64,000 bases of DNA from contig NZ_JXQM01000006.1 of NCBI RefSeq assembly GCF_000832065.1, forward strand, positions 1 through 64,000. The letters run 5' to 3'. Origin of the DNA: Nitrosospira sp. NpAV (lineage in GTDB: Bacteria > Pseudomonadota > Gammaproteobacteria > Burkholderiales > Nitrosomonadaceae). Numbering within the stretch: the stretch's first letter is position 1; every line of letters begins with the position of its first letter. This document shows, one piece after another, positions 1,304 through 46,098 of the stretch. The notes under the pieces are model-generated. The model was not told where the DNA came from. It saw only the letters and a list, made by a program, of their open reading frames with translations, and ran no database searches. The position numbers and the translations under genes were made by a program.

Positions 1304-2815
1304 ATGTCATTTGATCAACTCAACCTATCTACCGAGATCCTGCGCGCTATTGCGGATCAAGGCTACACAGAACCCACTCCCATTCAGGCACAGGCAATTC
1401 CGCCGATCCTCGAGGGCAAGGACATCATGGGAGGGGCGCAAACCGGCACCGGCAAAACCGCCGGCTTTACGCTCCCGATGCTGAATCGATTGCAGCACCA
1501 TGCCAATACCAGTGTGTCACCCGCCAAACACCCGATTCGTGCGTTGATCCTGGTTCCCACGCGGGAATTGGCGGCGCAGGTGCATGAAAGTGTCAAAACC
1601 TACGGAAAATACCTGCCGCTCAAATGCGCGGTAGTTTACGGAGGCGTGAATATTGATCCCCAGGTAAAAGAGCTGCGCGCGGGTGTCGAGATCCTGGTGG
1701 CGACCCCTGGACGGCTGCTGGATCATATTGAGCAGAAAACAGCGAGTCTTTCCAAGATCGAGATTTTGATACTGGATGAAGCTGACCGCATGCTGGACAT
1801 GGGTTTCATGCCTGACATAAAGCGCATCCTTGCACTGATACCACCGCAGCGCCAGAGTCTGATGTTTTCTGCCACTTTTTCCGACGAAATCAAAAAACTG
1901 GCGGATAAGCTATTAAAACAACCGGTATTAATCGAAGTGGCACGGCGCAACTCCATTGCCGAATTAGTGACGCACGTCGTGCACCCAGTTGATCGCGAGC
2001 GTAAACGCGAACTGCTCACACATCTCATCAAGTCGCAAGATCTGAAACAGGTGCTGGTATTTGTGCGTACCAAGCATGGCGCCAGCCGCCTGGCTCAGCA
2101 ACTGGAACGCGATGGCATCACCGCAACCGCGATTCATGGCGACAAGAGTCAGCCTCAACGCACGCAAGCGCTGGCGGAATTCAAACAGGGAGTAGTACGG
2201 GTTCTGGTGGCGACTGACGTCGCCGCACGGGGACTGGACATTGAAGACCTGCCGCATGTCGTCAATTTTGAATTGCCCACGACGCCGGAAGATTATGTCC
2301 ATCGAATCGGCCGCACCGGCCGGGCCGGCGCCAAGGGCGACGCAATTTCACTGGTATGCGAGGATGAGAATGAATTGCTCGAAGGTATTCAGAAACTTCT
2401 AAAAATCAAGCTTAATGCAGAGGTGGTGGCAGGATTCGAGGCGGAAGCGCCGCACCACCCAAAAGGGTCGGTGGATGCCCGTCACCGGCTCAAACGGAAC
2501 GAACTCGCGAAGCCAGAGCATAAGGCATCGTTCGAATCCCATCGGCGTCTTAACGAAGGATATCCGACTTCTCGCTCCAAGGATCCCAAGAAATATGAAG
2601 GACAGGGGGAGTACAGACGCGTACAGGGAGGGCGAGCTAAACCGCCAGAAGATCCCTTATTCACGCAGCCCTATATACCATCGGTAAAATCCTCGGATAC
2701 ACCCTCTGCATCCCCCAATGCGACGGCATCCTCTTCCCCCCGCCGGGGGCAACAAAATAAACCCCTGCCTGCGCTATTCATGCCGCGAGTTTCCAAACCC
2801 AAGCAGGATGAATAG
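1304..2815 (+). CDS. rhlE: DEAD-box ATP-dependent RNA helicase, RhlE type
   Basis: ATP-dependent RNA unwinding, normally linked to ribosome assembly and RNA turnover. All core motifs are visible: the Q motif ([12 protein letters not shown]), Walker A AQTGTGKT (residues 45-52), PTRELA, TPGR, DEAD, SAT, and the motif VI segment [10 protein letters not shown]. After the core comes a basic, proline- and serine-rich C-terminal extension of about 120 residues, typical of RhlE proteins and probably disordered RNA-binding sequence. An in-frame ATG exists at 1220, but the start at 1304 has GGAG five bases upstream and begins with the usual family N-terminus, so I use 1304 (503 residues). It is transcribed alone or with the following adenosyltransferase gene. 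Confidence 0.93.
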
Positions 2816-2879
2816 TGGAAGTGGATGAAGGAGCTGGATCTATCTGCCGCGACCTATGATTCCGCAATAGAACTTACGA

Positions 2880-3440
2880 ATGGGTAACAGGCTAACAAAA
2901 ATCTACACTCGCACGGGCGACGACGGCACCACGGGCCTGGGCGATGGCACGCGATCCGCCAAGGAAAGCTTACGTATCGAGGCTATTGGCACCGTGGATG
3001 AGCTTAACAGTTGTATCGGCGTACTGCTTGCGGAAAGTCTCGAGGAGGGAATGCGCCTCAAGCTGGAAAATATCCAGCACGACCTATTCGACCTGGGAGG
3101 CGATTTAAGCATTCCCGGGCGCGTCAGTATGAACGAAGCGCATGTCAGGCGACTGGAAAAACAACTCGATGAATATAATCTCACGCTGCCCGCGCTGAAG
3201 GAATTCATACTTCCCGGCGGCGCTCGCGCAGCCGCCCTCTGTCACGTCGCGCGTGCCGTCTGCCGCCGCGCGGAGAGAGATGTGGTCAGGATAGCTCGAG
3301 GCGAGGCGATGATCCCGTTTCACGTCCAGTATCTCAACCGCCTGTCGGATTTTTTGTTCGTATTAAGCCGTGTCCTGAACCGTCAGCACGAGGTGGAAGA
3401 CGTGCTATGGCAGCCTGGAAAGAATCTCGATCCGGCCTAG
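2880..3440 (+). CDS. pduO: ATP:cob(I)alamin adenosyltransferase, PduO type
   Basis: Transfers the adenosyl group of ATP to cob(I)alamin, making coenzyme B12. The N-terminal nucleotide-binding motif TRTGDDGTTGLGDGTR is diagnostic for the PduO/MMAB family. The helical-bundle region with RAVCRRAERDVV and LNRLSDFLFVLSR is also present. At 186 residues it is normal length for single-domain bacterial members. It lies 64 bases downstream of rhlE on the same strand and is convergent with lspA. No cobalamin riboswitch is visible ahead of it. No B12-dependent mutase gene lies nearby, so its client enzyme is elsewhere. Confidence 0.92.
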   Translation: MGNRLTKIYTRTGDDGTTGLGDGTRSAKESLRIEAIGTVDELNSCIGVLLAESLEEGMRLKLENIQHDLFDLGGDLSIPGRVSMNEAHVRRLEKQLDEYNLTLPALKEFILPGGARAAALCHVARAVCRRAERDVVRIARGEAMIPFHVQYLNRLSDFLFVLSRVLNRQHEVEDVLWQPGKNLDPA

Positions 3441-35705: not shown

Positions 35706-36242
35706 ATGCAAGAATATCACGGCACTACCATACTTTCAGCGCGACGCGGCACGCAAGTGGCGCTTGGAGGTGATGGCCAGGTAACCTTGGGCGCCATCGT
35801 AGCGAAGGCCAGCGCTCGCAAGGTGCGTAGGCTTTATCATGACAAAATTCTCGCAGGATTTGCGGGCGGCACAGCCGACGCTTTTACCTTGTTCGAGCGT
35901 TTTGAAGGTAAACTTGAGAAGCATCAGGGGCACCTCATGCGTTCGGCGGTTGAGCTGGCGAAGGATTGGCGAACTGACCGCATTTTACGCCGGTTGGAAG
36001 CGATGCTGGTGGTAGCCGACCCCGAAACCACGCTTATCATTACGGGCTCGGGTGACGTGATTGAACCTGAGTTGGGACTCGCCGCGATCGGTAGTGGAGG
36101 TTCTTATGCCCATTCCGCGGCGCGCGCACTCCTGGAAAACACCAGTCTGACGCCGGTGGAGATTGTCAAGAAGTCGCTTACCATCGCAGGCGATTTGTGT
36201 ATCTATACCAATCAGAACCATATCATCGAAGTTCTGGAATAG
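35706..36242 (+). CDS. hslV: ATP-dependent protease subunit HslV
   Basis: Proteasome-like peptidase that forms a double hexamer, activated by HslU. The N-terminus [15 protein letters not shown] shows a six-residue propeptide before the catalytic Thr (Thr7, Thr1 after processing). The GDGQVTLG segment and the C-terminal [10 protein letters not shown] segment are typical. 178 residues. A good -10 box TATAAT lies 30 bases upstream of the start. Pairs with hslU downstream. Confidence 0.97.
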
Positions 36243-36410
36243 CGTGCAAGCTAAACGTAAATAGTGAGACGCAAGTGAAACACAAAAGGAGATGCGGTTT
36301 TTTTACGGGTACCATCCCGCGAAGCGCACTCCACTCCGGCATATCGGCTTCAGCCTGCTTCTCGCGTTAGGTCTCCATATCCCGCCACTTTATCATTGAT
36401 GCCTTGAACC

Positions 36411-37742
36411 ATGTCCCAACTGACCCCTCAGGAAATCGTCCACGAACTCGACAAACACATTATTGGTCAAGATGCCGCCAAGCGCTCCGTGGCCATTGCG
36501 CTCAGGAATCGCTGGCGCAGGCAGCAGGTAATGGATCCCCTGCGGCAGGAAATCACGCCAAAAAATATCTTGATGATCGGACCCACGGGCGTCGGCAAGA
36601 CCGAAATCGCACGCCGTCTGGCAAAACTCGCCGATGCGCCGTTCATCAAGGTGGAAGCGACCAAATTTACTGAAGTGGGTTATGTCGGCCGCGATGTGGA
36701 TTCCATCATCCGCGATCTGGTGGAATCCGCCATCAAGCAGTCCCGTGAACAGGAAACCCAGAAAATGAGGGCTCGCGCGGAAGACCATGCCGAGGAGCGT
36801 ATCCTCGACGTGTTGCTGCCAGCCGCAAGAGAGATGGGCTCGCCAATGGAAGTGGGAGAGGGCGACAATGTGACCCGGCAAAAATTTCGCAAGAAATTGC
36901 GCGAGGGCGAGCTCGACGATAAAGAAATTGAAATCGAAGTTTCAGCGGCGCATCCTCACATGGAAATCTTTGCGCCACCGGGAATGGAGGAGCTGACCAC
37001 GCAAATTCAAGGTATGTTTCAGAATCTGGGAGGAGAAAGAAAAAAGACTCGCAAGCTGAGAATCCGTGAGGCAATGAAGCTGATTACCGATGAAGAGGCA
37101 TCCAAACTCGTCAATGATGAGGAGTTGAAGCTTCGCTCAGTGCAGAATGTCGAGCAGAATGGTATCGTGTTTCTTGACGAAATCGACAAAATCACCAGCC
37201 GGTCCGAAACTTCCGGGGCGGACGTATCGCGCCAGGGCGTACAACGGGACTTGCTGCCGCTGGTGGAAGGTACCACGGTTTCCACGAAATACGGCATGAT
37301 CAAAACTGATCATATCCTGTTCATCGCCAGCGGCGCATTCCATCTCGCCAAGCCTTCCGATCTGATTCCAGAATTGCAGGGCCGTTTTCCTATTCGGGTC
37401 GAACTGGCCAGCCTTAGTGCCCACGATTTTGTACAAATCCTCACGAATACAGATGCCTGCTTGACACGTCAATATGAGGCGCTCCTGGAAACTGAAAGGA
37501 TCAAGCTGGAATTTACACCCGATGCGGTTAAACGCCTGGCGGAGATTGCTTTCGCGGTTAACGAAAAAACCGAGAATATCGGCGCAAGACGCCTTTATAC
37601 CGTAATGGAAAAACTTCTGGAAGATGTTTCCTTCGACGCCGAGAAACACAGTGGCAATACCGTCGTCATTGATGCCGCATACGTGGATGTACGGCTCAAC
37701 AGCTTATCCCAAAGCGAGGATTTAGCCCGCTACGTGCTTTAA
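36411..37742 (+). CDS. hslU: ATP-dependent protease ATPase subunit HslU
   Basis: AAA+ unfoldase partner of HslV. Walker A GPTGVGKT is at residues 57-64, Walker B is IVFLDEIDK, and the pore-loop region is [14 protein letters not shown]. The intermediate (I) domain spans roughly residues 110-230. The C-terminus ARYVL inserts into HslV. 443 residues, normal. It follows hslV by about 170 bases. Confidence 0.98.
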
Positions 37743-37842
37743 CTCAACAAGTTCTCCGTGAAGTGCTCGTTTCGGGATCTATCCGGTGGGCCTCCAGTCC
37801 TCAGCTTCGATACGGGAAAAAGCTGATGAAAATGCGGGTGAA

Positions 37843-39054
37843 TTACGCAAACTGACCCGCTGCATAACCGGACGCCCAAGCCCACTGGAAATTGAATCCG
37901 CCCAGATGTCCGGTCACGTCCACGACTTCACCGATAAAATATAGGCCAGGTACTTTTTTCGCTTCCATCGTCTTGGATGACAACTCCCGGGTATCCACCC
38001 CTCCCAGCGTCACTTCCGCTTTTTTGTATCCTGCAGTACCGCTGGGCGTGATTTGCCAGCTACGCAATTGCGCGGCAATCTGCTTCAATTCAGTTTCACT
38101 ATACCGGTTTAGCTGACGGACGGAATGACCTGGCATAATGGCTTCACACCAAGCCTGGGCAAAGCGTCTGGGTAGATATTGCGCTAATAAATTGGGCAGC
38201 AGCGCAGTGCTGTGCCTGTGATCGAGCAGCCATGCCGCCGCGTCGAGGTCCGGCAACAAGTTGAGTTGAACAGGAATTCCAGGCTGCCAATAGGAAGAAA
38301 TTTGCAATATGGCGGGGCCGCTCAAACCACGATGCGTGAATAAAAGATTCTCGCGAAAGCATGCCTCATTACAGCTTACCGTTGCGTCAATTGCGATGCC
38401 TGAAAGCCCGGAGAAAAATGTCAGTTGATCAGCTGCGAAAGTGAGCGGAACAAGCGCCGGCCGCAGGGGCGTAACGGTGATGCCAAATTGCTCGGCGATA
38501 CAATATCCAAAGGAGCTTGCACCGATTTGTGGGATGGACAGGCCTCCCGTTGCGATCACTAATGAGTCGGCCACCCAGGTGTCACGGTCGGTTTCCAGCA
38601 CGAATCCACTACTGGAATCGTTACCGGTTGCGCCGGTATGAATACGGCTTGTATGGGTCACTCGACATGGCATTTGCCATTCAACGCCCGCCGCGTCGCA
38701 CTCATGCCGCAACAGATCGATGATCTGCTGCGAACTGCCATCGCAAAACAATTGCCCCAGTTTTTTTTCATGATAGTGGATGCCATGTTTTTCCACCAGC
38801 ATGATAAAGTTTTGCGGGGTAAATCGTGCCAACGCGGATCGGCAGAAATGAGGATTGTGCGACAGGAAATTTTCCGGTCTGGTATGGCGATTGGTGAAAT
38901 TACACCGTCCTCCGCCGGAAATACGAATTTTTTCTGCAAGCTTCGAGGCATGATCCAACAGCATGACCGAGCGTCCGCGCTTGCCGGCTTCGATCGCGCA
39001 CATCATCCCGGCCGCGCCAGCGCCTATCACTATTACATCTTTTTTTATTTTCAT
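37843..39054 (-). CDS. HI0933-like NAD(P)/FAD-dependent flavoprotein
   Basis: Flavoprotein of the HI0933/BaiN family, 403 residues. The FAD-binding GAGAAGMMCAIEAGKRG is near the N-terminus, followed by KIRISGGGRCNFTN, a family hallmark. The C-terminal GLYFIGEVVDVTGHLGGFN ends the FAD site. The reaction is unknown; a BaiN-like bile-acid role is not expected here. Its ATG overlaps the stop of the upstream methyltransferase as ATGA, so the two are translated together. Confidence 0.9.
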   Translation of the reverse strand: MKIKKDVIVIGAGAAGMMCAIEAGKRGRSVMLLDHASKLAEKIRISGGGRCNFTNRHTRPENFLSHNPHFCRSALARFTPQNFIMLVEKHGIHYHEKKLGQLFCDGSSQQIIDLLRHECDAAGVEWQMPCRVTHTSRIHTGATGNDSSSGFVLETDRDTWVADSLVIATGGLSIPQIGASSFGYCIAEQFGITVTPLRPALVPLTFAADQLTFFSGLSGIAIDATVSCNEACFRENLLFTHRGLSGPAILQISSYWQPGIPVQLNLLPDLDAAAWLLDHRHSTALLPNLLAQYLPRRFAQAWCEAIMPGHSVRQLNRYSETELKQIAAQLRSWQITPSGTAGYKKAEVTLGGVDTRELSSKTMEAKKVPGLYFIGEVVDVTGHLGGFNFQWAWASGYAAGQFA

Positions 39055-39716
39055 TCGATGGGCTGAATCCGCATCTGGCTGGCGTTACCCCATCGTTTCC
39101 GCCACACGCTGGCTAACCACGGTTGCTGTTCGCGCGGCCGCCCGGCAGGACGGTAATAGTGAGTAATCTCGACAAATCCGGCCGCGGCCATATAGTCCTG
39201 CCATTTTTCAATATCATGATATGCGCCATAACGCCCGTGGGTCCAGCCCTCGTCATTATTTCCGCGCGGATTGGAACTGAACAGCACGCCGCCCGGTTTC
39301 AGCGCGTTGCACAACTCCGTCAGCACACGGGGCAGCTCACAGCTGGGAACATGAAACAGCGAAGCATTCGCAAATATGCCGTCGAAGTATTCACGCGGCA
39401 GATCGAGTCCAAGAAAATCCTGGCACCATACTTCGCAGCCGCTATAGCTGTGGGCCATTTCAACGAATTGCCGGGCACCGTCAAGTCCGATCGCGATATG
39501 CCCGAGGTCGTTAAAAACCTTGAGATCACGCCCCGGCCCGCAGCCAAAATCCAATATGGTGCAAGGGGGGGTGCTCTCGATATACTTCAGCAATGCTGAG
39601 ATATTCTGGCTGACGTCATGATCTTTCGTTCCTTCCCAGAAATGGTCGGCGCGCTTGTTGTAGTGGGCGAGCGTAAGAGAAGAAATTTTCTTCAGATCCA
39701 GCGAGGTGAGTTTCAT
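39051..39716 (-). CDS. class I SAM-dependent methyltransferase
   Basis: Rossmann-fold methyltransferase of 221 residues. Motif I ILDFGCGPGRDLKVF and the following acidic position in AIGLDGA are clear. The acceptor substrate is not evident. It overlaps the flavoprotein gene by four bases (ATGA), implying coupled translation, though a shared pathway is not proven. Confidence 0.88.
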   Translation of the reverse strand: MKLTSLDLKKISSLTLAHYNKRADHFWEGTKDHDVSQNISALLKYIESTPPCTILDFGCGPGRDLKVFNDLGHIAIGLDGARQFVEMAHSYSGCEVWCQDFLGLDLPREYFDGIFANASLFHVPSCELPRVLTELCNALKPGGVLFSSNPRGNNDEGWTHGRYGAYHDIEKWQDYMAAAGFVEITHYYRPAGRPREQQPWLASVWRKRWGNASQMRIQPIE

Positions 39717-39898
39717 GCGATGCTTATGTGAGGTACGGAATAATGATCAAGTCTTCGTCATGTCCAATTCGCGGCGAAGGGAGTAAGGCGATGCCCGGAA
39801 TGTAATATCCAGTGGGCAACAGATCTCAGATTCCCGCATTGGAGGCGTTATACCGTCCAGGAAGTCACGGAGCAATCCGGCACGTTACAGGAGTTCCC

Positions 39899-40666
39899 CT
39901 AACGCAGGACACCCAGTAACGCACTCCGCGCCTGTAAATCGCGCATAATTGCCAGCCCCCCCTGGATCACGATTTCGGGCGAGGGATGGTGGCTTTCCGC
40001 AGCAATAATTTCGAGTGCTGCTTGGCCTGTATGCCCGGGGGTTTCCAACAGATTTATCAGGCGCGAAGTAAACGCATTGATCTCGGTGAATCGAATTTGA
40101 TCGCTCATATCGCGGAATACCAGTAAATAAGTTGCTGCCGGCATAATTCGAGTGCGCGGACCGATACGATGCACGGGCCACCGATAACACAGATTGGCGA
40201 GCACCGGGTTTAGAATGGGGTGCTGTTCCAGTAGGCTGCCGCCGGGATCGATGCGGTCCCAATCCGGCAAATCCATTGAAACGGAAAGCACCAGTTCTAT
40301 CCATTCATAGTGTGCCAGCTCCAGCATGAATTCGGGATAATCTGCGGTTGGCGTCCATTCCGTTTGCAGGAACTGAATAAACTCATCGGGTATTTCCCGA
40401 AAAAAAGGTGAGCGGCTACGATGTATGGCAAGAAACGCCCGCATGAGCCGTCCCCATCGACGCGTTCCCAATACTTTTCTAAGTACGGGAAAGCAGCTCA
40501 ACAGGAAACTCTCAGCGTTGTTGTAAACCAGCCTTTTATATATCCGCATACGTCTTGCTTCGATGCCACGCGGGCAAGGGTTTGCAGTGGAGTCGCGGAT
40601 ATGCGCGGTGAACGCGTACTGGAAGCGCTGAAATTCAGGAAGCTGCCCGGACATGGCTCGTATCAT
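39899..40666 (-). CDS. DUF2063 protein, MNIO partner (BufC/HvfC-like)
   Basis: The N-terminal DUF2063 domain ([17 protein letters not shown], then [20 protein letters not shown]) corresponds to the BufC/HvfC partner that presents precursor peptides to the MNIO enzyme in bufferin-type RiPP pathways. 255 residues; an internal Met at 40654 is an alternative start. It overlaps the 3' end of the MNIO gene by 20-32 bases, so expression is coupled. The C-terminal half is probably the wHTH-like recognition region. Family assignment is good; the client precursors are inferred from the two genes upstream. Confidence 0.85.
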
Positions 40667-41486
40667 GCCGACTCTGAATAAGACCGATGCGGTCGACCTC
40701 TCGCATCAGTTCATGCAAAGGGGGAATATTGAAGTCGCGCTCAAGCAAGGTGGGAGCCACGCCATGGATGCGGTAAGTTTGATCCAGCAATGACCATACC
40801 GGATCGATTATGTCCGCGCCATGGGTGTCGATAATCAGGTTCTCCGCTTCATTGTAATGCCCGGCCATATGCATATAGACAATGCGTTCGGTGGGCATGG
40901 CACGAATGAATTCGATGGGGTCGTAGGCATGGTTGACGCTGTTGACGTAGACGTTGTTAACGTCAAGATGCAGGTCGCAGTCCGCTTCGGTCAATACAGC
41001 ACGGATAAAGTCTGCTTCACTCATTTCGGTAATGGGGGCGCGCACATAAAACGAGGCATTTTCCAAAGCGATGCGGCGTTCCAGAATATCTTGAGCGCGG
41101 TGAATGCGTGCGGCCACATATTTGACTGCTTCTTCGGTAAAAGGTATTGGAAGCAGATCATAGAGATGACCATCGTCGGAACAGTAGGAGAGATGTTCGG
41201 TATAAAGCGGAATTCGATGCTGGTCCAGGAACTGCCGGATCTTATGCAGAAGCACCTCATCCAGCGGTGCGGGGCTGCCAATGGAGAGCGAGAGTCCATG
41301 GCAGACGAAGGGGTAGCGCTCCGTGAAGCTACGCAAATCCCGTCCCGCCACACCGCCGAAATCAATCCAGTTTTCCGGGGCAATCTCGAAGAAATCAATA
41401 GCGGCGGGGACATGCGTTTTTAATTCGGGAATGAGTTCCCGCCGAAAGCCCAGTCCCACGCTGGCACGGCTTAACAATTCCCCCAC
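40635..41486 (-). CDS. DUF692 multinuclear non-heme iron oxidase (MNIO, BufB/HvfB-like)
   Basis: TIM-barrel iron enzyme of the DUF692 family, which includes MbnB (methanobactin) and BufB (bufferin cysteine oxidation). Metal-ligand segments expected in the family are visible in order: [41 protein letters not shown] and DTHGADI. 283 residues, normal length. It lies 10 bases after the second EF-hand precursor and overlaps the DUF2063 gene. Likely role: oxidative conversion of Cys in EG(K/R)CG motifs of the upstream products, by analogy with bufferins. Confidence 0.9.
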
Positions 41487-41496
41487 CGATCAGAAA

Positions 41497-41913
41497 TTAC
41501 TTCTTCATCCCACCATGCGGCGCTGCGTTAGGGGCACCGGGTCCACCCGGCGCGTGAGGCGAGCTGGGTCTGGCACCGCCATAACTGTCAGCCTCAGGCT
41601 GGTCGACAGCACCATCCTTGTTGGTATCCATCCTGTCAAATATGGCTTCATGATGCTTCAGGAATTCCTGCTTTGTGACTTTGCCATCTTTATTGGTGTC
41701 CACCATCGACATGCCGCATCGGCCTTCGCCGGATTTCGCTCCACCCCCATATTTGTTAGGGTCTACCTTATCAGCATACGCAAGCACGATACCCTTTTCC
41801 AGGGATTGCACGTTGAAAGGATTGTCGGTCGCGGAGGCGAACGGTACCGTACCGAGCGTAGCGGCAAAAGCGGAACCCACAGCTAGGGAAATCATGGTTT
41901 TCTTATTGCGCAT
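41497..41913 (-). CDS. secreted EF-hand protein with one EGRCG motif (candidate RiPP precursor 2)
   Basis: 138 residues: signal peptide (cleavage near Ala28 in FASATDNPF), the bufferin-like NPFNVQSLEKG segment, a single Cys66 in GEGRCGM, then two EF-hand loops (residues 72-83 DTNKDGKVTKQE and 96-107 DTNKDGAVDQPE), and a Pro/Gly/His-rich tail. A Shine-Dalgarno AGGAG sits eight bases before ATG 41913. It is followed by the MNIO gene within 10 bases, so it is a likely substrate. Ca2+ binding is expected from the loops; Cys modification is inferred. Confidence 0.8.
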   Translation of the reverse strand: MRNKKTMISLAVGSAFAATLGTVPFASATDNPFNVQSLEKGIVLAYADKVDPNKYGGGAKSGEGRCGMSMVDTNKDGKVTKQEFLKHHEAIFDRMDTNKDGAVDQPEADSYGGARPSSPHAPGGPGAPNAAPHGGMKK

Positions 41914-42060
41914 GATATCTTCTCCTAAATTTTGGACGAATATTATGTCACAATTCGAGAGAGATGGGAGGCTGTGGTTAGCTGGGCGGGGTCGACTTTT
42001 TTCGTGTGGAGATCCGCTCAAAGAAGCCGCCCCCAGCCCGGAAAACCATCCATCGCATAC

Positions 42061-42441
42061 TTACTTGCTACCTCCGCACTTGCCGTCTTTTGTTTTCCCT
42101 TTTATCTCATCTTTGCCGATAAAGCCATCCTTGTTGGCATCCATATGTTCGAACATGGCGTTGTGATGCGCGGTCCATTCTTCCTTGGTGATCTTGCCAT
42201 CCTTGTTTGCATCCGCCATAGCCGCACCACACCTTCCTTCGCCGCACGCCCCTTCACCACCGCATTTACCTTCACTGCCTTTTTTCTCACCATAATTGTG
42301 TGAGTCAGCTATCATGTAGCCCCTTTCGAGAGACTGCATGGCAAAAGGGTTATCAGCTGCGGAAACGACCGGTACGCTACCAACGCTTGCAGCTAAGAAG
42401 GAACCCGCAGCGATGGAAATAATGGATTTTCTATTAGACAT
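42061..42441 (-). CDS. secreted EF-hand protein with EGKCG/EGRCG motifs (candidate RiPP precursor 1)
   Basis: 126 residues: signal peptide (cleavage near residue 28-29, VVSAADNPF), the NPFAMQSLERGYMIA segment seen in BufA/HvfA-type precursors, then Cys60 (EGKCG), Cys66 (GACGE), Cys71 (EGRCG) and Cys122 (GKCGG). Two EF-hand loops follow the Cys cluster: residues 77-88 (DANKDGKITKEE) and 101-112 (DANKDGFIGKDE). Clearly a paralogue of the gene at 41497. First gene of the cassette; its start has AGGAG about nine bases upstream. Confidence 0.82.
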   Translation of the reverse strand: MSNRKSIISIAAGSFLAASVGSVPVVSAADNPFAMQSLERGYMIADSHNYGEKKGSEGKCGGEGACGEGRCGAAMADANKDGKITKEEWTAHHNAMFEHMDANKDGFIGKDEIKGKTKDGKCGGSK

Positions 42442-43002
42442 GATCTTCTTCTCCTGTATAAAGATATAAGAGGTGTTGCATTGCAATCCCTGATAGGAAA
42501 CCGCACTTGTCGTAGCAATCCACTAGACTTGCCCTCTTTCTTCTGTGACCAGTTTCTGACGCGTGCGGATACTCTAAACAATCTCAGCCATCATTGAAGC
42601 AGCAAGCTCAATTGCTTGATCGGCAGAGCAAATAATGGCTACAAGCAACATAGCACAATTTCCGGCCGGGTGCGACAAATTGTCGCATCTGCCTGATCAA
42701 CCAAGCGGTACCCTGGGGAATATTCATAGCGACGGTTGTCGTTGAGGATGATTTTGAGAAATGTGGCATTTATTTTCTTTCAGGGGTATCCAAGGAATAG
42801 GAATTCTGTAAAAATTCGTGCTTTCGTGCGAGTGGGTTTCATGCAAACTGACTGCCCGAAGTTATCTCCAAGCTCTATATGGGATAGAATTGATTTTTGC
42901 CGCTTGCCACGGCGGACGAATAGCAAACTTATTGCTGTATAATATTTTTTTTCTGTAAAAGTATTTTTATACGTCACCAGAAATATAAAAGGAATATTAA
43001 AA
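42442..43002. other. divergent region between the RiPP-like cassette and dksA
   Basis: About 560 bases without a convincing gene. The cassette promoter should lie in its left part, where TTGCATTGCAA (42475-42485) is a short palindrome. The right part holds the dksA promoter. A 68-codon frame at 42736-42942 has no recognisable sequence. Confidence 0.45.
42938..42943 (+). promoter_or_regulatory. -10 box of the dksA promoter
   Basis: A perfect TATAAT lies 60 bases before the dksA start, overlapped on its left by the small inverted repeat AGCAA...TTGCT (42922-42936). No good -35 is at the expected spacing, so an activator or extended contact may be needed. Confidence 0.5.
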
Positions 43003-43425
43003 ATGCCGCAAGAACTGCGTAAACCAGCGACTCCTTACAAACCGAAGAAGGGGGAAAGCTACATGAGTTCCAGGCAACTTATGCATTTTCGCAATATACT
43101 GGAAGGGATTAAAATTGAATTAGGCCAGGATATAGATCGTACAGTGCATACCATGCAGGATGAAGCGACGATTTTCGCCGATCCTAACGATCGTGCCAGT
43201 CAGGAATCAGACATGGCGCTGGAATTACGCAATCGGGACCGCGAACGAAAGTTGATCAAGAAAATCGATGAGACCATTGCAAAAATTGATACGGGCGATT
43301 ATGGTTATTGCGATAGTTGCGGCATTGAAATCGGCCTGAAACGCCTCGAAGCCCGTCCTACTGCCACCCTCTGTATAGACTGCAAGACTCTCGACGAGAT
43401 AAGGGAAAAGCAGGTAGCCAAGTAA
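43003..43425 (+). CDS. dksA: RNA polymerase-binding transcription factor DksA
   Basis: Secondary-channel regulator that acts with ppGpp. The coiled-coil region carries the tip motif [11 protein letters not shown], followed by a four-Cys zinc finger (CDSCGIEIG ... CIDC). 140 residues, near standard. AAAAGGAA precedes the ATG at 43003. A strong terminator follows. Confidence 0.96.
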
Positions 43426-43484
43426 ATTGTTGTCAATTCTCTGCGGGTTTATTGACCTCTACCTTTCAAAAAATTTTGCCGGTT

Positions 43485-43522
43485 AAAAAAAAGCCCCTAC
43501 CACAAGATAGGGGCTTTTTTTT
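43485..43522. terminator. bidirectional intrinsic terminator between dksA and pnp
   Basis: AAAAGCCCCTA and TAGGGGCTTTT form an 11-bp stem with an 8-base loop, with A-run and T-run flanks (eight Ts at 43515-43522). It can terminate dksA rightward and pnp leftward. Confidence 0.92.
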
Positions 43523-43585
43523 GCTTATCGTAAAAGGAATTACGATCCAGGTCGGATGTTTGATATCACGACCTGCAACAAAAGC

Positions 43586-45694
43586 TTATGAAACGGCGTT
43601 GTCGGCGCCCTCGGTAGTGACGGCCTTCATACTGAGACGTAACCGTCCTTTGTCGTCGGCTTCCAGAACCTTGACCCGCACAGCTTGGCCTTCCTTGAGA
43701 TGATCGGCAACGCTGTTGACGCGCTCGTTGGCGATTTGCGAGATATGCAACAAACCATCCTTGCCTGGAAGAACGCTAACGATTGCGCCGAAATCCAGAA
43801 GTTTCAATACGGTCCCGTCATATATTCTCCCCACCTCCACTTCGGCGGTAATATCTTCAATACGTTTCTTTGCCACTTCGCCGCCTTCGGCGTTGATACA
43901 AGCTATCATAACGGTGCCATCGTCGGTGATATCGATGGTGGTTCCGGTTTCTTCAGTCAATGCACGGATTACAGCACCACCCTTGCCAATTACATCACGG
44001 ATTTTTTCAGGATTGATTTTAATTTTAATGATACGCGGCGCATGTTCGGAAATATCCTCACGCGTTGAAGGCAGCGCCTGCTTCATGATTTGAAGGATAT
44101 GCATGCGTCCTTCCTTGGCTTGTATCAGCGCGGCATGCAGAATATCTTTGGTGATGCCCTGAATTTTGATATCCATTTGCAGCGCGGTGATGCCCTTCTC
44201 GGTCCCCGCTACTTTGAAATCCATATCGCCCAAGTGATCTTCATCCCCGAGAATATCGGTCAGCACTGCAAACCGGTTGCCCTCCTTAATAAGTCCCATG
44301 GCAATACCTGCCACATGCGCTTTCAATGGCACGCCTGCGTCCATTAACGCAAGACAGCCACCGCAGACCGACGCCATGGAGCTGGAACCATTCGACTCGG
44401 TAATCTCCGATACCACACGCAGCGAATAACCGAACTCCTCGGCGGAAGGCAGCACTGCAACCAATGCTCTTTTGGCCAGGCGCCCATGCCCGATTTCGCG
44501 GCGTTTGGGCGTGCCTACCCGGCCAGTCTCGCCGGTGGCATAGGGCGGCATGTTGTAATGGAGCATGAAACGCTCGGAATAATCCCCTTGCAGGGCATCA
44601 ATTTTTTGTTCGTCTCGACCTGTGCCGAGAGTTGCAATCACCAGCGCCTGGGTTTCCCCGCGAGTAAACAAGGCCGAGCCATGGGTACGCGGTAACAGGC
44701 CGTTGCGGATAGTAATGGGACGAACGGTGCGCGTATCGCGTCCGTCTATGCGAGGCTCGCCATCGAGAATTTGGGAGCGCACGATTTTTGACTCGAGAGC
44801 AAAGCAGGCCTCTTTCACAACTTGCCCATCCGGGCCGTCTTCCGTGTCGACGCCGACTTCAGTAAAAACTCTTCTCCAGATGTTATCGATGGCCTCGGAT
44901 CGCGCCTGTTTCTGCCTCAATTGGAATGCACCACGCAAATCTGTTTCCGCCAGGCCGGCAATTTTTTCGGCTAGCGCCATATCCGTTTCCGTCGGCGTCC
45001 AGTCCCATGCGGTGACCCCCGCCTCGTCGGCCAGTTCATTGATGGCGTTGATCGCCGCTTGCATTTGCTGATGGCCGTACATGACCGCGCCCAGCATGAT
45101 ATCTTCGGACAATTCCAATGCTTCAGATTCCACCATCAGCACCGCTTGCTGCGTGCCCGCCACCACCAGATTCAACTGGGTTTGTTTCAGTTCGGTCGTG
45201 GTAGGATTCAAGACATACTCGCCGTTGATGTAGCCGACCCGGGCGGCACCAACAGGACCATCGAAGGGGATGCCGGAAAGCACCAGCGCGGCGGAAGCGC
45301 CCACAAGTGCGGGTATATCGGCGTCTACCTCGTTATCGGACGACAGAACGGTGGCCACGATCTGTACTTCATTATAAAAACGTTCGGGAAATAGCGGACG
45401 GATGGGACGATCAATCAGACGTGAGGTAAGAATTTCTTTTTCGGAGGGACGGCCTTCACGCTTAAAGAAGCTGCCGGGTATCCTGCCGGCGGCATAGCTT
45501 CTTTCCTGATAATCCACCGTCAAGGGAAAAAAATCCTGGCCCTGCTTGGCATTTTTTGCACCTACCACGGTAACCAGAACTACGGTATCGTCCATGGTAA
45601 CCGTCACCGCCCCATGCGCTTGTCTTGCTATCTCCCCGGTTTCCAGTGTTAGTTGATGACGCCCGTAGGTAATACTTTTCTTGATTGATTTCAA
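43586..45694 (-). CDS. pnp: polyribonucleotide nucleotidyltransferase (PNPase)
   Basis: Phosphorolytic 3'-5' exoribonuclease of the degradosome. Two RNase PH-like domains are joined by a helical linker, followed by a KH domain ([20 protein letters not shown]) and a C-terminal S1 domain ([25 protein letters not shown] split here). 702 residues. The start codon is TTG at 45694, with a weak AGGG upstream, as pnp of E. coli also starts with UUG; a weak start fits the autogenous control known for pnp. Follows rpsO, the usual order. Confidence 0.97.
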
Positions 45695-45828
45695 TTAACT
45701 ACCCTTTTTCAAAAAATCATTCCCGTTTACTTGCGGCTCACCAGTTCCAGCACGAGATGTACACTATTGTCTATCATGAGACGAGAATTTCATGTACTCC
45801 GCAGGTTCTCGTAATCAGGGTTGATACC

Positions 45829-46098
45829 CTATTTGCGTAAACCAAGCCGCTCGATCAACGTCCGATAGCTATCAGCGCTGCTGCGCTTGAGATAATCAAG
45901 CAGCTTGCGGCGGCGACTAACCATGCGCAACAATCCGCGGCGGGAGTGATGATCCTTGACATGTGCCTTGAAATGATTTGCCAGATCATTGATACGAGTG
46001 GTCAATAATGCCACCTGCACTTCGGGAGAACCCGTATCTCCAGCGGCCCGCTGATATTCGCGCACCACCTGCGCTTTTTGATCGGTTGTGATTGGCAT
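45829..46098 (-). CDS. rpsO: 30S ribosomal protein S15
   Basis: 89-residue rRNA-binding protein. The [15 protein letters not shown] and [22 protein letters not shown] segments are canonical. Located upstream of pnp, as in most proteobacteria. Confidence 0.99.

Follow-up and report, generated by a model that had tools for sequence, protein, structure and literature searches.

EF-hand proteins as likely substrates of an HvfB-type iron oxidase in a Nitrosospira gene cassette

What are two small, secreted-looking EF-hand proteins doing just ahead of the gene for an iron-dependent oxidase? The question is raised by a cassette in the window analysed here, a stretch of 64,000 nucleotides from Nitrosospira sp. 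NpAV (contig NZ_JXQM01000006.1, positions 1 to 64,000), in which two EF-hand proteins, P1 and P2, are followed by a multinuclear non-heme iron oxidase (MNIO; PF05114, formerly DUF692) and a partner protein with a DUF2063 domain. Systems of this kind have already been published, and such cassettes are described and widespread; what appears to be new here is comparative evidence, taken from related genomes, for the EF-hand proteins as MNIO substrates. The best explanation, to which we give a probability of about two in three, is that P1 and P2 are substrates of an HvfB-type MNIO and its partner, and that they would be modified, exported, and able to bind calcium together with a soft metal. That they are substrates seems well supported by the comparisons below.

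All four genes are open on the minus strand, from 42441 down to 39899 (Table 1), in the order given by the initial annotation, which was made from the sequence alone. That annotation also called them tightly spaced. This holds for the last three, as the MNIO gene starts 10 bases after the P2 stop codon and overlaps the DUF2063 gene by 32 bases, but P1 and P2 are separated by 147 bases that hold a promoter-like element. The cassette is not a chance arrangement, since the MNIO and DUF2063 genes adjoin in each of the 22 further genomes examined from the genus, and P2 is present in 21 of these. Both precursors show a hydrophobic, signal-like start, then a (D)NPFxxxxLxxGxxxA stretch, EGxCG-type motifs, and two EF-hands; the Pfam model EF-hand_5 (cut-off 25.9 bits) scores them at 44.5 and 38.9 bits, with two stretches in each, which bears out their description as EF-hand proteins. 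A hydrophobic N-terminus with an AxA-like end was seen, as judged by eye, in 17 aligned EF-hand precursors (alignment and profile A1). EGxCG-type motifs had been described as well and are present, but they differ between the two proteins. In P1, the hydrophobic N-terminus and a DNPFxxxxLxxGYMxA segment precede EGKCG, EGACG, and EGRCG, after which come the two EF-hands and a C-terminal DGKCG, for four motif cysteines; P2 has a single cysteine, Cys66, in an EGRCG directly ahead of EF-hand 1.

The enzyme pair is recognised by Pfam as the initial annotation had proposed, with the MNIO matching PF05114 at 352 bits and the partner matching PF09836 (DUF2063) at 88 bits and NGO1945_C (PF22106), a domain of the RiPP (ribosomally synthesized and post-translationally modified peptide) recognition element (RRE) type, at 83 bits. 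Residues 7-274 of the MNIO can be aligned, in two segments, to the MNIO structure 3bww, and the motifs HGLSLS, HLS, EN, HLDVNN, H.AGH, DTHG, and LERDFN are retained; residues of this kind presumably bind iron. Partner residues 13-208 match 3dee. Curated NCBIfam cut-offs place the pair more finely. The MNIO passes HvfB (NF003818, 436.4 bits, cut-off 360), and the partner, with both its DUF2063 and RRE-type domains, passes HvfC (NF050145, 267.5 bits, cut-off 142), while the MNIO falls short of BufB (NF050167, 265.2 bits, cut-off 310) and of the methanobactin enzyme MbnB (TIGR04159, 35.6 bits, cut-off 325). Because the HvfB and HvfC cut-offs are passed and those for BufB and MbnB are missed, the cassette is assigned by profile to the EGKCG (oxazolin, captophorin) branch, rather than to the bufferins in the strict sense, and the bufferin-like label first attached to it is rejected. 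A classical Buf1/Buf2 cassette would share the enzyme superfamily, the partner type, and signal-bearing precursors with this one (PMC12452194; statements attributed to papers by PMC number refer throughout to the sections of those papers covered here). Such an identity is nevertheless extremely improbable, given the cut-offs just described, the lack of a Pfam match to DUF2282, the Buf1 precursor domain, in P1 or P2, and an MNIO tree that sets the window apart from five low-identity MNIOs lacking a called EGKCG precursor and presumed to be BufB-like. Lanmodulin, likewise a small secreted EF-hand protein, was also considered as a relative and rejected, the matches to NF053806 being weak (23.6 and 24.1 bits against a cut-off of 135). 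The EF loops of P1 and P2 are ordinary ones without the proline that lanmodulin has at loop position 2.

The evidence bearing most directly on the EF-hand proteins as substrates comes from a single residue. A1 has a single invariant cysteine, in the EGxCG motif that immediately precedes EF-hand 1; in 17 of 17 sequences it lies six residues before the first calcium ligand. A scan of this junction in the loci covered from the family Nitrosomonadaceae (83 junctions) found cysteine in 75, tyrosine in seven, and serine in one, the last being a shifted paralogue (L159). All seven tyrosines belong to the P2 orthologue of one other genus of the family, here g2, and occur in all seven g2 genomes where such an orthologue was found. 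Six of these genomes (G001, G004-G008) have no MNIO, and the seventh, G003, has a sole MNIO, 32% identical to that of the window. The tyrosine orthologues have no cysteine beyond the first few residues and retain the acidic residues of the EF loops, although the glycine at position 6 of loop 1 is Ala or Asn in five of the seven and the NPF segment has decayed in several. In G004, the tyrosine version of P2 is followed immediately by what is left of a DUF2063 gene, decayed and interrupted by stops, and no MNIO survives. The eighth g2 genome, G002, has an MNIO 31% identical to the window's, and only a protein without EF-hands was found in it. As read from these sequences, g2 is a natural loss experiment, with no enzyme, no target cysteine, and the EF-hands kept. 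The joint loss of enzyme and junction cysteine is good evidence that the EF-hand proteins are MNIO targets, and together with the co-occurrence described next it supports the earlier suggestion that they are the substrates.

An MNIO was found in 97 of 125 genomes of the family: all 23 from the window's genus, 64 of 85 from a genus that is probably Nitrosomonas, eight of nine from a further genus, g4, and two of the eight from g2, the two g2 enzymes being only 31-32% identical to that of the window. At an E-value of 1e-5, profile A1 matches all 97 MNIO-bearing genomes and 21 of the 28 without MNIO, the latter mostly through other proteins. Among these 28, seven have no match, six are the g2 genomes with tyrosine, two have cysteine (G021, G017), eight have His-rich EF-hand proteins (G026, G031, G037, G055, G061, G074, G084, G087), G032 has a Cys-free EF-hand region, and G010, G011, and G081 have a protein without EF-hands. 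The only g4 genome without a detected MNIO, G120, is 74% complete, and its EF-hand precursor (L372) has decayed to a fragment that is interrupted by a stop ahead of the EF-hands and has an unreadable junction.

Neighbourhoods of MNIO genes were read at 70 places in the family. In the window's genus, P2 stands ahead of the MNIO in 22 of 23 genomes, the window's included; before P2 (or alone, in G112) there is an EF-hand P1 in eight, a plain peptide with three EGKCG motifs in three, and neither in twelve. At 35 of the 37 Nitrosomonas loci read, the precursors are plain EGKCG proteins without EF-hands but with a similar NPFxxxxLxxGY segment, and at all eight g4 loci there is one EF-hand precursor with three motif cysteines. 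The window genome, which has one MNIO only, encodes a third EF-hand precursor on a different contig (C202; L077, 5730-6224, minus strand), with one EGRCG and beside argJ, a placement found in all 23 genomes of the genus, one locus ending before argJ. If this protein is modified, the modification must occur in trans, since the gene is unlinked to the sole MNIO; the same single enzyme would probably be responsible. In G103 (L148, minus strand, about 2331-3137 of the reverse complement), the third precursor contains an internal duplication, with two EF-hand pairs and EG(R/K)CG before each. A fourth EF-hand protein of the window genome (L002) has neither cysteine nor NPF segment.

Some relatives resemble the precursors without their motifs. 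Related, secreted-looking, mostly His-rich EF-hand proteins without EGxCG occur at Nitrosomonas loci L120-L124, L126, L159-L162, L166-L168, L373, and L377, with sequences such as HQCEHKMSSVDxNKDGKISKEE, and may represent another metal-binding EF-hand type. The first 13 of these loci (through L168) were excluded as precursors for having neither EGxCG nor an NPF segment; L168, with HGKCG ahead of EF-hand 1, is borderline. A protein of about 210 residues in G010, G011, G081, and G002 (L116, L117, L125, L376) combines a precursor-like N-terminus with a His-rich stretch and no EF-hands, and is perhaps a periplasmic metal-stress protein.

The association extends beyond the family. A sample of 369 genomes from the class yielded an MNIO in 222 and, at 1e-7, matches to A1 in 92, mostly over the plain EGKCG part alone. 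Twenty matched places, chosen as full-length or EF-only matches, were read. Proteins with both EF-hands and EGxCG were found in at least 11 genomes other than the window's, and all 11 have an MNIO somewhere, adjacent in seven; at nine loci with EF-hand proteins lacking EGxCG, no MNIO was found within the 5.2-5.4 kb read. Named genomes were also scanned at the DNA level for the pattern EGxCG-x4-D-x-(D/N)-x-(D/N)-G, with at least 117 stretches found, in Pseudoxanthomonas, Lysobacter, Luteimonas, Dokdonella, Tahibacter, Nitrosospira, Nitrosovibrio, Thiogranum, and others among the matches listed; some of the Nitrosospira loci also figure in the family survey. The listed matches comprised 121 in frame, from which nine without an EF-hand were dropped and 112 kept, 92 of them with at least 900 bases downstream. 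A search of this kind for EF-hand and EG(K/R)CG proteins near DUF692 genes had been proposed in the initial annotation, and its outcome favours the association: an MNIO lies on the same strand within 700 bases in 74 of these 92 listed reading frames, and 60 of those 74 MNIOs are less than 75% identical to that of the window. The 18 listed matches without an adjacent MNIO are 13 of the third-precursor type, four from Thiogranum and other Gammaproteobacteria, and one spurious (L359).

Plasmids carry such genes too. The conjugative Pseudomonas putida plasmid pKF715B (NZ_AP015031.1, L367) has an MNIO and partner, with multicopper oxidase and PtrA genes on one side, beyond an insertion sequence (IS) element, and a gene for a heavy-metal-associated domain on the other. 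P. aeruginosa plasmid pPALO11 (CP075839.1, L366) has genes for a sigma factor, a zf-HC2 protein, a precursor-sized product, DUF692, DUF2063, and DoxX.

A quick MNIO tree (LG+G4) was built from 122 of 162 rows, omitting a random 15 of the 30 loci L007-L036 and 25 of the 33 rows without a called precursor. The window belongs to a clade with 35 members (support 93, not starred), of which 32 have an EF-hand precursor upstream; the remaining three (G012, G022, G077) have one downstream or elsewhere in the genome. The EF-hand label changes seven times on the tree, against 37.7 in shuffles, and none of 500 shuffles was as low; at least three of the seven changes are forced by well-supported branches, and EF-hand versus plain needs five. 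Precursor type thus follows enzyme clade, and several gains or losses of the EF-hand fusion seem to have occurred.

Several observations weigh against the proposal that P1 and P2 are modified by this enzyme pair. Two Nitrosomonas genomes without MNIO retain the junction cysteine, G021 (99% complete) in EGKCG and G017 (80% complete) in EAPCG. The tyrosine cases are confined to one genus and may reflect one event. Of the minimal peptides given to FonBC, one with two repeats was modified and one with a single repeat was not (PMC12668002); P2 has a single motif. Both P1 (17.8 bits) and P2 (14.1 bits) fall below the cut-off of 19.5 for the HvfA-domain model NF050137, and the third precursor has no match, although EF-hand relatives at L055 (26.6), L061 (20.7), L249 (36.6), and L250 (47.6) exceed it. 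A DoxX gene, frequent but not universal in Hvf clusters, is lacking from the cassette, the two DoxX genes of the window genome being on other contigs. Finally, no modification or metal results for any EF-hand member were found in the open-licence PMC literature.

If P1 and P2 were instead plain periplasmic calcium sensors or buffers, with the MNIO acting on something else and the cysteines staying free, G021 and G017 would be readily explained, as would the persistence of EF-hands in g2 without cysteine or MNIO, from which it follows that the EF-hands have a use of their own; moreover, EfhP of P. aeruginosa, made in Escherichia coli without its signal peptide, binds Ca2+ with a Kd of 13.7 uM (PMC9132961). 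We consider this unlikely. It leaves the tyrosine in seven of seven g2 orthologues unaccounted for, and gene order, the N-terminal segment held in common with plain EGKCG precursors, and co-occurrence all tie the protein to the enzyme. Should the EF-hand proteins be substrates, the metal might still be iron, in a dual calcium and iron sensor of the sort proposed for EfhP, which has four EGKCG repeats and is needed for calcium regulation of iron uptake (PMC11559002). This seems quite unlikely when the characterised EGKCG products bind copper (PMC12668002, PMC13419390) and an MNIO cassette lies near copper-resistance genes on pKF715B, with the reservations that its MNIO is 43% identical, that the IS element intervenes, and that its precursor was not examined. 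Copper binding by the products of P1 and P2 would follow by analogy with those characterised systems.

Ammonia oxidation had been invoked to make copper plausible, and acquisition or delivery of copper for ammonia monooxygenase is suggested by the ammonia oxidisers in the family, with AmoA found in 13 of 17 genomes searched (all but G000, G004, G006, and G116). The argument is weakened by the 28 of 125 family genomes without MNIO: of five searched for AmoA, three have it (G005, G008, G021) and in two none was found (G004, G006). Among the matches listed, the cassette is also common in Lysobacteraceae, which are not known as ammonia oxidisers. A supply role for the monooxygenase is very unlikely, and there is no support for a link to ammonia oxidation. 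The window's own assembly (G000) gave no AmoA (PF02461) match, while six relatives (five single-contig, and the two-contig G100) have three copies each; the absence is probably an assembly gap, a repeat lost in assembly. The physiology of the host therefore rests on its genus, and Nitrosospira is a genus of soil ammonia oxidisers.

Table 1. Features of the cassette and its surroundings, in window coordinates.
Feature	Coordinates	Strand	Basis
P1, EF-hand precursor, 126 aa	42061..42441	-	open reading frame; EF-hand_5 match; precursor alignment A1
P2, EF-hand precursor, 138 aa, tail ends HGGMKK	41497..41913	-	open reading frame; EF-hand_5 match; A1
HvfB-type MNIO (PF05114, formerly DUF692), 283 aa, GTG start	40635..41486	-	Pfam and NCBIfam
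HvfC-type partner, DUF2063 domain and NGO1945_C (RRE-type) domain, 255 aa	39899..40666	-	Pfam and NCBIfam
TGTGACATAATAT, extended -10-like candidate promoter element, 26 bases before P2 start codon	41940..41952	-	comparison of relatives
TGCGACAATTTGTCGCA, palindrome, possible operator	42671..42687		some 230 bases ahead of P1, between it and the divergent dksA

The candidate promoter element TGTGACATAATAT occurs in all 22 P2-bearing genomes of the genus, the window's included, and is absent from the one without P2. Given this conserved putative promoter, P2, MNIO, and DUF2063 could be transcribed without P1, which would make P2-MNIO-partner the minimal operon. The element came from comparing relatives; scanning for consensus promoters gave no sigma-70-like site at either P1 or P2, and no Rfam family reached its gathering score within 36000-46000. 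In an alignment of 22 upstream regions, the palindrome TGCGACAATTTGTCGCA is perfect in the window and L043, has one or two changes in L037, L039, and L056, and is half retained in L055; it was not seen in L046 or L051, which also have an EF-hand P1. Upstream of the cassette lie the divergent dksA and then pnp, and downstream a methyltransferase and then an HI0933-like flavoprotein (Pfam), and the same order is found at most of the 22 loci from other genomes of the genus. AlphaFold2, run on P2 with a 36-row alignment (A2; mean predicted local distance difference test score, pLDDT, 59), is confident only for the EF-hand pair at about 68-112; it cuts the first entering helix to 68-71, directly after Cys66-Gly67, and leaves the N-terminus disordered.

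HvfBC and FonBC install 5-thiooxazole on EGKCG peptides, and the product binds copper (PMC12668002, PMC13419390). By this model, the partner would hold the precursor in the cytoplasm, probably through its N-terminal region, while the iron enzyme would convert the cysteine in every EG(K/R/A)CG-type motif into a 5-thiooxazole by oxidation, giving at most four in P1 and one in P2. Export by Sec with removal of the signal would then give a periplasmic or secreted two-EF-hand protein, carrying Ca2+ in its EF-hands. The thiooxazoles, one of them at the N-terminal edge of EF-hand 1, would bind a soft metal, most likely Cu(I). The unlinked third precursor would probably be processed likewise. HvfABC of Haemophilus (oxazolin) and FonABC (fontiphorin), both captophorin systems, resemble the cassette in their HvfB/HvfC enzymes, by curated cut-off, and EGKCG-type targets, and HvfA in being a signal-bearing precursor. 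HvfA differs in having six cysteines in repeated EGKCG, and the sections covered of PMC12668002 and PMC13419390 mention no EF-hands for HvfA or FonA; the hvf operon also has a DoxX gene, unlike the window cassette.

The closest described relatives carry EF-hands. Type-2 EGKCG precursors with two EF-hand_5 domains (Buf_EGKCG/EF-hand_5 chimaeras) are described in PMC12452194, where roles in copper and Ca2+ homeostasis are suggested with citation of EfhP. Like them, the present proteins have an N-terminal hydrophobic helix and a short EGxCG segment followed by two EF-hand_5 domains, and their gene cluster includes MNIO and PME-type 1 (DUF2063) genes. The window differs in having two tandem EF-hand precursors, with the single-Cys P2 behind its own putative promoter element, plus the unlinked third. 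That paper records precursors in tandem and genomes where precursors outnumber MNIOs, and the sections covered contain no single-Cys EF-hand cases. It was the only item found in the open-licence PMC literature to combine EF-hand, multinuclear non-heme iron, and RiPP; among the items listed there, none dealt with these proteins in Nitrosospira or with the cysteine loss, subscription papers being outside the scope. EfhP itself (PA4107, with PA4106 DUF692 and PA4105 DUF2063) has two EF-hands, a predicted periplasmic location, and EGKCG repeats, and efhP is apparently in an operon with the DUF692 and DUF2063 genes (PMC4053335, PMC11559002). Compared by description only, the architecture of P1 agrees, with two EF-hands, EGKCG-type motifs, and adjoining DUF692 and DUF2063 genes, EfhP differing in its four EGKCG repeats; MNIO and DUF692 are not mentioned in the sections of PMC11559002 covered.

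The observation behind the initial annotation is confirmed and its interpretation is partly supported. The position of the junction cysteine raises a further, doubtful possibility, that thiooxazole and calcium site are coupled in a switch, with calcium setting the geometry or exposure of the Cu(I)-binding ring or with copper tuning calcium affinity. If so, the protein would be a calcium-gated soft-metal buffer or sensor, the single-Cys P2 would be a minimal form of the switch rather than a bulk copper sponge, and the in vitro work on Pseudomonas EfhP would have dealt solely with the unmodified protein. The MNIO substrates studied in most depth are peptides, and here the substrate appears to carry a folded calcium-binding domain. 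A single-Cys precursor bears on whether MNIOs of the HvfB branch need repeats, and the comparison gives reason to look again at EfhP, the calcium sensor studied in P. aeruginosa, which may be a modified metallophore.

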